From Corallococcus macrosporus DSM 14697 (GTDB lineage Bacteria > Myxococcota > Myxococcia > Myxococcales > Myxococcaceae), in contig NZ_CP022203.1 in NCBI RefSeq assembly GCF_002305895.1, positions 7,722,001 through 7,786,000 of the forward strand: DNA of 64,000 nt, read 5' to 3'. Under the pieces are notes generated by a model, which was not told the origin of the DNA, searched no databases, and was given only the letters and a program-made list of their open reading frames with translations. The translations under genes and the position numbers were made by a program. Below are positions 52,681 through 55,464 of this stretch, one piece after another (positions within the stretch are counted from its first letter, which is position 1; every line of letters begins with the position of its first letter).

Positions 52681-52809
52681 ATGCCCAAGGGAAACCGCAC
52701 CATCATCCACCTCGTGTCGTCCGCGGGGACCGGCCAGGAGAAGCTCCAGCTCAAGAAGTACGACCCTCGCGTGCGCAAGCACGTGCTGTTCGTGGAGGGC
52801 AAGCCGTGA
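52681..52809 (+). CDS. rpmG: 50S ribosomal protein L33, cysteine-free, shortened
   Basis: This is a 42-residue L33 paralogue. It opens [18 protein letters not shown] and ends [18 protein letters not shown] plus a short tail. L33 is usually about 54 residues; here the roughly 13-residue segment with the YTT...KNKR motif is missing between AGTG and EKL, apparently by an in-frame deletion. It has no cysteines, so it is the zinc-independent form. The ATG follows GGAG, and the stop overlaps the start of the COG0523 gene (TGATG). This is the first gene of a zinc-starvation operon. Confidence 0.85.
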
Positions 52810-54053
52810 TGGCGCTGGCGCCCGCGACGCGGCTGCCCGTCACGGTGCTCTCCGGCTTCCTGGGAGCGGGCAAGACGACGCTGCTCAACCACGTCCTCCA
52901 GAACCGGGAGGGCCTGCGGGTGGCGGTCATCGTCAACGACATGAGCGAGGTGAACATCGACGGCCGGCTGGTGAAGGCGGGCGGCGGCGCGCTGAGCCGC
53001 GTGGACGAGAAGCTGGTGGAGCTGTCCAACGGCTGCATCTGCTGCACGCTGCGGGAGGACCTGCTGCTGGAGGTCTCCCGGCTCGCCCGGGAAGGCCGCT
53101 TCGACTACCTGCTCATCGAATCCACCGGCATCTCCGAGCCGCTGCCCGTCGCGGAGACCTTCACCTTCGCGGACGAGCAGGGCCAGGGCCTGTCGGACGT
53201 GGCGCGGCTGGACACGCTCGTCACGGTGGTGGACGCCCTCAACTTCCTGCGGGACTGGAGCGCCGCGGATGACCTCGCCGCGCGCGGGCTGGCCGCCGCG
53301 GACGAGGACGAGCGCACCGTGGTGGACCTGCTGGTGGAGCAGGTGGAGTTCGCCGACGTGCTGGTCCTGAACAAGGCGGACCTCGTCCCGGCGGACGCGC
53401 TGGCCCGGCTGAAGGACATCCTGCGCAAGCTCAACCCGGAGGCGCACCTCGTCACGGCGGAGCGGGGCCGCGTGCCCCTCTCCACCGTGCTCAACACCGG
53501 CCGCTTCGACTTCGAGCGGGCGCGGCGCTCACCGGGCTGGCTCAAGGAGCTGCGGGGTGAACACACGCCGGAGACGGAGGCCTACGGCATCCGCAGCTTC
53601 GTCTTCCGCAGCCGCGTGCCCTTCCACCCCGCGCGGCTGTGGGACTTCATCCACGAGAGCTGGCAGGGCGTGCTGCGCTCCAAGGGCTTCTTCTGGCTCG
53701 CCACGCGGAGGGACATCGCGGGCGTGTGGGCCCAGGCCGGCGGCGCGTGCAGCTTCGAGCCCGGCGGCGTGTGGTGGGACGCGCTGCCCCGCGCCGAGTG
53801 GCCGGACGACGCCCAGGCGCGCGCCGACATCGAGCGCGAGTGCGAGGGCCCGCACGGCGACCGGCGGCAGGAAATCGTCTTCATCACCCAGGACGCGGAC
53901 CACGAGGAGCTGGCCCGGCTGCTGGAGGCCTGTCTGCTCACGCCCGAGGAGTTGGCGCGTGGGCCCCAACAATGGACGCGGCTGGAGGACCCGTTCCCTG
54001 AATGGCAGGTGCAGCGGACGGACGGCCCCGACGAGGCGGAGGAGCACGCCTGA
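52809..54053 (+). CDS. COG0523-family metallochaperone GTPase (CobW/ZigA-like)
   Basis: This is a 414-residue G3E GTPase. The P-loop [12 protein letters not shown] lies near residues 15-26, the metal-binding CxCC motif is in [11 protein letters not shown] (Cys76, 78, 79), and NKAD is the G4 motif. The C-terminal CobW domain has the Trp-rich segment [22 protein letters not shown]0523 proteins bind zinc or cobalt and deliver metal, often under Zur control. It is translationally coupled upstream to L33 and downstream to DUF1826 (both TGATG). It probably redistributes zinc during shortage. Confidence 0.93.
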
Positions 54054-54685
54054 TGCAACCCGCCCTCCGTCCCCTCGCGCCGGCCTCCCACGCCTTCGTG
54101 TGGACGCCCGAGGAGCTCGCGGGCATCTACCGCGAGGAGGTCAACCTGTGCGTGTGGCGCCGGGGCCTGGACACGCCGCTGGCGCACTGGCTCAGCGACG
54201 TGACGGCCACGCGTGAGCTGGACGTCATCGCCCGGGTCCAGGCCGACGCGCCTGACTTGCGGCGCCGGCTGGACGGGTTGCCTCAAGGGCCGCGGTTCGA
54301 AGCCTGGCTCGAGGACGTGCACTTCCTGCTGCACCTGTACGCGGACCTGTTCGGCGCGACAGAGCTGGGCGTGCGCCTGCACATCCTGGCCAAGGACATG
54401 TGCCCCCGCTTCCACGTGGACCGCGTGGGCGTCCGGCTGCTCTGCACCTACGCGGGGCCCTCCACCGAGTGGCTGGAGAACGTCCACGTGGTGCGCGGCG
54501 CACTGGGCGCCACGGGCGACGTGACGCGGCCCGGCGCGCCCGTCCACGCGTTGGAGCGCTTCGACGTGGCGCTCCTCAAGGGCGAGTCCTGGCCCGGCAA
54601 TCAGGGCAACGGCGCCGTGCACCGCTCCCCCGCCATCGCCGGCAGTGGCCGGCGGCGGCTCTTCCTTTCCATCGAAGCACTCTAG
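54053..54685 (+). CDS. DUF1826 protein
   Basis: This is a 210-residue protein of the DUF1826 family, recognised by PRFHVDRVGVRLLCTYAGPS and GNQGNGAVHRSPAIAGSG, with the C-terminal RRLFLSIEAL. DUF1826 genes often accompany COG0523 GTPases in zinc-responsive clusters. The His-rich conserved core (FHVDR, AVHRSP) might bind metal, but the function is unknown. The start overlaps the stop of the GTPase gene. rpmB follows after 12 bases. Confidence 0.9.
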   Translation: MQPALRPLAPASHAFVWTPEELAGIYREEVNLCVWRRGLDTPLAHWLSDVTATRELDVIARVQADAPDLRRRLDGLPQGPRFEAWLEDVHFLLHLYADLFGATELGVRLHILAKDMCPRFHVDRVGVRLLCTYAGPSTEWLENVHVVRGALGATGDVTRPGAPVHALERFDVALLKGESWPGNQGNGAVHRSPAIAGSGRRRLFLSIEAL

Positions 54686-54697
54686 AGGAACGCATCC

Positions 54698-54934
54698 ATG
54701 TCGAAGGTCTGCCAGGTCACCGGGAAGCGGCCGCTCGTCGGCAACACCGTGTCCCACGCCAACAACCGGCACAAGCGGCGCTCGCTGCCGAACCTCCAGT
54801 GGCACCGCTTCTGGGTGCCCAGCATGAGCCGCTTCGTGAAGCTGCGGGTCAGCGCACACGGCATCCGCATCATCAACCAGCGCGGCATCGACCGCGTGGT
54901 GCGGGAGCTGCTCGCGGAGGGAGTGAAGCTCTGA
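54698..54934 (+). CDS. rpmB: 50S ribosomal protein L28, zinc-independent type
   Basis: This is a 78-residue L28 of the E. coli type ([51 protein letters not shown]). It has one cysteine only and lacks the CxxC pairs of zinc-binding L28. It is part of the alternative ribosomal-protein set expressed when zinc is low. GAGGAACG lies before the ATG. Its stop codon overlaps the start of the small unknown gene downstream (TGATG). Confidence 0.95.
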
Positions 54935-55128
54935 TGCGCCGCCGCGATGGACGCCCCACCCACGCCCTCTGGCGCCGGGCCGCCGCGCGGCACCGGCTTC
55001 AGGGCCGCGAGTTCGCGCCGCCGCTGCTCGTCGGCGTGACGGAGGACGACGAGGCCGCGGCCCCGGCGCCGCCCTCCCACCTGAACGTCGTGCCCTCCCC
55101 TGAACCCCTGAGCGAGTCCGCGCCCTGA
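54934..55128 (+). CDS. Small unknown protein in the zinc-type operon
   Basis: This 64-residue protein is Arg-rich at its N-terminus ([20 protein letters not shown], then RLQGREFAPPLLVGV) and acidic and Pro-rich at its C-terminus. I do not recognise it. It starts inside the stop codon of rpmB and ends 30 bases before rpsN, so it is cotranscribed. The basic N-terminus could bind RNA or the ribosome, but this is only an inference. It could also be a decayed ribosomal-protein paralogue. Confidence 0.6.
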   Translation: MRRRDGRPTHALWRRAAARHRLQGREFAPPLLVGVTEDDEAAAPAPPSHLNVVPSPEPLSESAP

Positions 55129-55158
55129 GGGGCGGCTCGCAGCGAGAAGGACAGCATC

Positions 55159-55464
55159 ATGGCGAAGAAGAGCAAGGTCGCGCGCAACGAGCAGCGCAAG
55201 GCGCTGGTCGCGAAGTACGCGAAGCGCCGCGCGGCGCTGAAAGCGCGCATTCGCGACACCACCCTCTCCCATGAGGAGCGGCGCGCCGCGCAGGACGCGC
55301 TGGCGTCCCTGCCCCGGGACTCGAACCCCAACCGCGTGACGAACCGCTGCACGCTGACGGGGAGGCCTCGGGGCAACCTGAGGCGCTTCGGCCTGTCGCG
55401 CATCGCGTTCCGCGAGAAGGCGCTCCGGGGCGAGATTCCCGGCGTCGTCAAATCGAGCTGGTGA
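55159..55464 (+). CDS. rpsN: 30S ribosomal protein S14, zinc-independent type
   Basis: This is a 101-residue S14 of the long, zinc-free form: [20 protein letters not shown] at the start and [20 protein letters not shown] near the end, with the conserved C-terminus PGVVKSSW. It has one cysteine, so no zinc site. It is the last gene of the L33-COG0523-DUF1826-L28 operon. A GC-rich hairpin follows, before a convergent gene. Confidence 0.95.

Follow-up and report, generated by a model that had tools for sequence, protein, structure and literature searches.

Operons in which zinc-free L28, L33 and S14 are controlled by Zur together with a COG0523 gene are an established kind of system (PMC7174638; PMC6103462). 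In Mycobacterium smegmatis, Zur controls the COG0523 gene MSMEG_6069, which encodes MRF and adjoins genes for zinc-free S18, S14, L33, L28 and L31 (PMC7174638). In Myxococcus xanthus, duplicates of S14, L28 and L33 were noted in 2009 as sitting together in the genome (PMC3087516). The Zur profiles of that study came from actinobacteria, Bacillus and gammaproteobacteria, and M. xanthus DK 1622 was among the genomes scanned; Zur sites near ribosomal paralogues turned up in Salinispora only, with none for M. xanthus (PMC3087516). A second family relevant here, DUF1826, has been labeled a domain of unknown function or linked to succinylglutamate desuccinylases, and was among the genes responding to loss of zur in Francisella novicida (PMC5786701). 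In Pseudomonas aeruginosa, ZigA and DUF1826 form the pair PA5535-PA5534 in the Zur regulon (PMC9431628).

Here we describe a locus of Corallococcus macrosporus DSM 14697 (genome of 8.97 Mb, single contig) in which these elements come together. It lies in a stretch of 64,000 nucleotides, referred to below as the window, for which an earlier note had proposed a zinc-sparing operon.

Gene content and zinc-ribbon paralogues

Six plus-strand genes are packed tightly at positions 52681-55464 in the order L33, COG0523, DUF1826, L28, a gene for a 64-aa protein, and S14 (Table 1). The open reading frames are located where the earlier note had placed them, with one-base overlaps (TGATG) at the L33/COG0523, COG0523/DUF1826 and L28/64-aa junctions and gaps of 12 and 30 bp at the remaining two. 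Families were assigned from Pfam and NCBIfam profile scores judged against the curated cut-offs, and every family that had been named from sequence (L33, L28, S14, COG0523 and DUF1826) was matched. Because the gene upstream is MgtC-like by Pfam and the genes downstream run in the opposite direction, the six-gene unit looks self-contained, and it is presumably cotranscribed.

Table 1. Features of the predicted zinc-sparing operon (window coordinates).
Feature	Position	Strand	Evidence
Predicted Zur operator CGCAACTTAGTTACA	52568..52582	.	2 mismatches to consensus TGCAACnnnGTTGCA; kept upstream in relatives
L33 (rpmG paralogue), zinc-free, 42 aa	52681..52809	+	PF00471 37.8 bits (cut-off 25)
ZigA-type COG0523 GTPase, 414 aa, putative zinc metallochaperone	52809..54053	+	cobW PF02492 and CobW_C PF07683
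DUF1826 protein, 210 aa, predicted 2OG/Fe(II) dioxygenase fold	54053..54685	+	PF08856 196.5 bits
L28 (rpmB paralogue), zinc-free, 78 aa	54698..54934	+	PF00830 82.4 bits
64-aa protein, myxobacterial conserved family	54934..55128	+	conservation, neighbors, dN/dS mostly <1
S14 (rpsN paralogue), zinc-free, 101 aa	55159..55464	+	PF00253 92.9 bits; PRK08881 140 bits

The three ribosomal proteins had been described as lacking zinc-binding cysteine pairs, and their translations agree: cysteine is absent from L33 and occurs once each in L28 and S14, and CxxC is found in none of the three. The genome encodes two copies each of L33, L28 and S14. As the earlier note had anticipated, each zinc-free protein has one zinc-ribbon (CxxC...CxxC) paralogue elsewhere in the genome. 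The second L33 (genome position 3607686; MPKGNRSIISLECTVCKERNY...KFCPRCRKH) adjoins tuf, secE and nusG, the second L28 has MAWKCDLCGK...ACTRCIK (3146258), and the second S14, of type Z, lies between L5 and S8 (3901106; RCPLCGR...MCRICLR).

Compared with the 54-aa zinc-free L33 of close relatives, the window L33 is without 12 internal residues (YVYTTTKNKRKS). Two related genomes carry other versions of this shortening, namely a 42-aa L33 with another 12 residues gone (G133) and a 37-aa L33 with 17 gone (G136). All three deletions are in frame, and their ends differ. Since genomes with full-length and shortened L33 also interleave in the ZigA gene tree, this segment of L33 has probably been hit more than once. 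Outside this segment, purifying selection on L33 is strong (dN/dS about 0-0.2), and the 12-residue loss may have impaired at least the replacement of L33. The L28, S14, ZigA and DUF1826 genes are intact in the window, with dN/dS mostly 0.03-0.3. In G136, a close relative (L059), L28, the 64-aa gene and most of DUF1826 have been lost, and ZigA, S14 and the 37-aa L33 are kept.

A predicted Zur operator and its candidate repressor

The palindrome CGCAACTTAGTTACA is found 98 bp before the L33 start and has two mismatches to TGCAACnnnGTTGCA. At two mismatches the window site is not exceptional in this genome, where a pattern search returned 88 matches versus 80 for a control pattern. In relatives with diverged promoters, the corresponding site is the clean palindrome TGCAACnnnGTTGCA. 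Across 34 Myxococcota loci picked for holding DUF1826 or the 64-aa gene, 11 sites are perfect and 27 have at most one mismatch, compared to 0 and an average of 0.2 for 120 palindromes permuted at constant composition. These loci are related, so their counts lack independence, and more weight falls on the retention of the box through rearrangement: other genera of the family carry the genes as two or three separate units (e.g. L33-p64 and S14-L28), with boxes next to these units. The earlier note had suggested testing Zur binding upstream of the operon, where a predicted Zur-type box is present that accompanies the gene set through its rearrangements. Its palindrome equals ATGCAACnnnGTTGCAT, the predicted Zur box of Desulfovibrio (PMC545781). 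An operator of a type that differs from the profiles used in 2009 would explain why that scan missed M. xanthus.

In several loci of relatives resembling Pyxidicoccus or Corallococcus (L044, L047, L048, L050 and L068), L33 is separated from the promoter region by an additional ORF of ~140 aa, which the window lacks. Its product has a signal-like N-terminus and the motif HAHRxC.

Elsewhere in this genome there are five one-mismatch sites. Two fall in the divergent promoter of a TonB-dependent receptor and an exported protein, and the remaining ones are located before a lipoprotein with CGGHGHLHDDHCHCDEGY repeats, before another lipoprotein, and inside a gene. Strong Zur-type palindromes occur outside the window at genome positions 8141586-8141650, 8134225 and 261983 (L090, L091), and the lipoprotein behind one of them has His-rich EGF-like repeats. 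Judged by these sites, the TonB-dependent receptor, the exported protein and the lipoproteins likely constitute a zinc-uptake regulon. A ZnuA-like gene (3470637) was also considered as a Zur target and was set aside, there being no box nearby.

Two FUR proteins are encoded in the genome. The best Zur candidate (8285578, outside the window) matches PF01475 at 47.5 bits (cut-off 23.1) and has the structural zinc site CxxC...CxxC in the form of CTDC and CDGC. Its sequence matches in the PDB include Fur, which scores best, and M. tuberculosis FurB/Zur. It is the orthologues of this protein, not those of the typical Fur, that adjoin zinc-free ribosomal genes, and a Zur-like FUR gene is found in this position in L046, L186, L188 and L190. 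A weak box, TGCATCCGGATTGCA, ~160 bp before the start of the candidate gene is compatible with autoregulation. The candidate may be specific for zinc.

The genome also encodes a zinc-free S4 paralogue outside the window (L092:2952-3581; genome 8089951-8090580). A Fur-like box, GAAATTGATACTGATTATC, is located 59-67 bp before its start and is conserved in 16 Myxococcaceae loci, with a mean of 3.8 mismatches to the E. coli Fur box versus 8.1 for permuted palindromes. Zur control of this gene was rejected, as a good Zur box is absent upstream in the 16 loci. Iron control of a zinc-free ribosomal protein would be unusual.

Proteins encoded beside the ribosomal genes

The COG0523 protein carries the motif CICC and scores 643 bits with the NCBIfam ZigA model NF038288, above the equivalog cut-off of 600.

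The AlphaFold2 model of the DUF1826 protein (pLDDT 94.5, pTM 0.89) has a double-stranded beta-helix fold. The best Foldseek matches are 2-oxoglutarate (2OG)/Fe(II) oxygenases, including PHD2, the Pseudomonas putida prolyl hydroxylase (4j25) and the ribosomal oxygenase NO66, among 291 matches at E <= 0.001 that reach 3e-6, with modest TM-scores of 0.35-0.51. With VIA-align, the model aligns to PHD2 at Z 10.6 (3.7 Å, 154 residues) and to the P. putida enzyme, which has also been solved in complex with EF-Tu (4iw3), at Z 10.4 (3.3 Å, 146 residues). A search of PDB sequences with the DUF1826 profile gave chance-level matches only, so the fold was recognized from structure comparison. Among 50 DUF1826 proteins, mostly from Proteobacteria and Myxococcota, C117, H121, D123, H190, R191-S192-P193 and R202 are kept, a pattern in which H121/D123 and the distal H190 would supply the metal triad HxD...H, and R202 the arginine that follows it for 2OG. 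PHD2 uses H313, D315, H374 and R383. The DUF1826/PHD2 alignment ends at 391/210, and R383 and R202 are equidistant from the aligned end. Assignment of DUF1826 to the 2OG/Fe(II) dioxygenase class with an HxD...H...R site is therefore well supported at the level of a predicted structure. The proposed link to succinylglutamate desuccinylases (PMC5786701) is not supported by the predicted fold.

A scan of genome contigs for DUF1826 included 71 loci from outside Myxococcota. The stretch retrieved around the gene holds a ZigA-like COG0523 gene in 48 of these loci, and L28, L33 or S14 in none. In this sample, the basic partner of DUF1826 therefore appears to be ZigA, with the ribosomal context a myxobacterial addition. 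Two divergent DUF1826 genes stand side by side in L055, L056 and L060, with zinc-free L33 placed between the two or next to them; in L055 and L056, ZigA is near the pair as well.

The 64-aa protein has a family match in neither Pfam nor NCBIfam, and inspection revealed no resemblance to L31, L32, L36 or S18. Its single-sequence model is one helix of low confidence (pLDDT 71, pTM 0.35), from which we claim no fold. The gene is kept in Myxococcus relatives and in three further genera of the same bacterial family, with a conserved core in the latter of REFAPPxL...V...ED...PxHLxxV, and good matches adjoin L33, S14-L28 or a Zur gene in several arrangements. Because pairwise dN/dS is mostly 0.2-0.65, with a few values up to 0.95, the gene is probably under selection and evolving faster than its neighbors. 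With its composition, basic and then acidic, the protein might be an accessory that associates with ribosomes or RNA.

Proposed model, alternatives and relation to known systems

We consider it very probable that this is a Zur-repressed zinc-sparing operon, joining a zinc-free ribosomal switch to ZigA, DUF1826 and the 64-aa protein. The zinc-sparing make-up that the earlier note had recognized is supported by the paralogues, by the Zur-type operator sequence and by the ZigA score (643 against 600), and the zinc-starvation reading as a whole is well supported by sequence comparison. With enough zinc, the Zur-type FUR repressor would hold the palindrome at 52568-52582 and keep the operon off. 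Falling zinc would lift this repression, after which newly made ribosomes would take up zinc-free L33, L28 and S14 in place of the zinc-ribbon paralogues, lowering zinc demand. ZigA may help route the remaining zinc to client enzymes. The DUF1826 protein would most likely act as a 2OG/Fe(II) oxygenase functionally tied to ZigA, and the 64-aa protein as an accessory of the alternative ribosome. A bolder version, which we regard as unlikely, would make DUF1826 a zinc-starvation-induced hydroxylase of the alternative translation machinery, with possible targets such as zinc-free S14 or L28, EF-Tu or ZigA itself, and the 64-aa protein a new subunit or assembly factor of the zinc-free ribosome.

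The shortened L33 raises another reading, namely that the operon is decaying, that its ribosomal switch no longer works and that the ribosomal paralogues are relics carried with the ZigA gene. Shortening with differing ends in the window, G133 and G136 fits this, as do the gene losses in G136 and the interruption of DUF1826 in G137 and G089. However, all three L33 deletions preserve the frame, the rest of L33 remains constrained, and L28, S14, ZigA and DUF1826 are intact here with low dN/dS, which makes general decay improbable. A further reading gives the COG0523 protein a role like that of MRF. Under zinc starvation it would bring a hibernation factor to the alternative ribosomes, and the operon would make dormant rather than active ribosomes. 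The gene neighborhood of MSMEG_6069 in M. smegmatis (PMC7174638) invites this comparison, and the window protein does score 207 bits with the MRF model (NF047431). That score is below the cut-off of 375, whereas the ZigA cut-off is passed, and many Proteobacteria pair the same ZigA type with DUF1826 at loci that are free of ribosomal genes; we thus rejected assignment to MRF and judge an MRF-like function quite improbable.

A signal other than zinc, for example iron via Fur or oxidative stress, might instead control the operon. The Fur-like box of the zinc-free S4 paralogue, which has no Zur box, and the Fur proteins that head the PDB matches of the regulator candidate would both agree with such control. 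Yet the operator matches the Zur type predicted in Desulfovibrio and not the Fur type, orthologues of the second FUR protein rather than those of the typical Fur adjoin the genes, and ZigA and DUF1826 belong to the Zur regulon elsewhere (PMC9431628; PMC5786701). Control by a signal other than zinc therefore seems very improbable, and zinc starvation is the reading that we retain.

In the literature searched, the myxobacterial operator and regulon outline, the oxygenase prediction for DUF1826, the 64-aa family and the recurrent L33 deletions appear to be new. They extend predicted Zur-controlled ribosome remodeling to a model myxobacterial genus and supply an operator that the 2009 search with other groups' Zur profiles did not report. 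They also provide a testable enzyme class for DUF1826, a Zur-regulon protein that occurs across Proteobacteria, often paired with ZigA, and they raise the possibility of a coupling between zinc starvation and an iron/2OG oxygenase. The 64-aa family adds a small conserved protein with a possible place in the alternative ribosome.

The described systems each share a part of this arrangement. The M. xanthus study dealt with the same grouped S14/L28/L33 duplicates, and there no Zur site was reported near them and ZigA, DUF1826 and the 64-aa gene were not described (PMC3087516). The Desulfovibrio Zur box has the same palindrome and spacing, but precedes znuABC-zur there and ribosomal and ZigA genes here (PMC545781). 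DUF1826 resembles the protein hydroxylases PHD2, the P. putida EF-Tu prolyl hydroxylase and NO66 in predicted fold and in HxD...H...R, differing in its low identity to them (7-16%) and in an extra invariant cysteine before HxD. The PA5535-PA5534 pair places the same two families side by side in a Zur regulon (PMC9431628); it is without ribosomal protein genes, whereas the window pair is embedded in a ribosomal operon. The mycobacterial cluster MSMEG_6065-6070 (rpsR, rpsN, rpmG, rpmB, COG0523/MRF and rpmE2; PMC7174638) likewise joins zinc-free S14, L33 and L28 to a COG0523 GTPase gene and a Zur operator, which is a predicted one here. In contrast to that cluster, which includes S18 and L31 and an MRF-type COG0523 protein, the window operon is without S18 and L31, has a COG0523 protein of the ZigA type, differs in operator sequence and gene order, and adds DUF1826 and the 64-aa protein.
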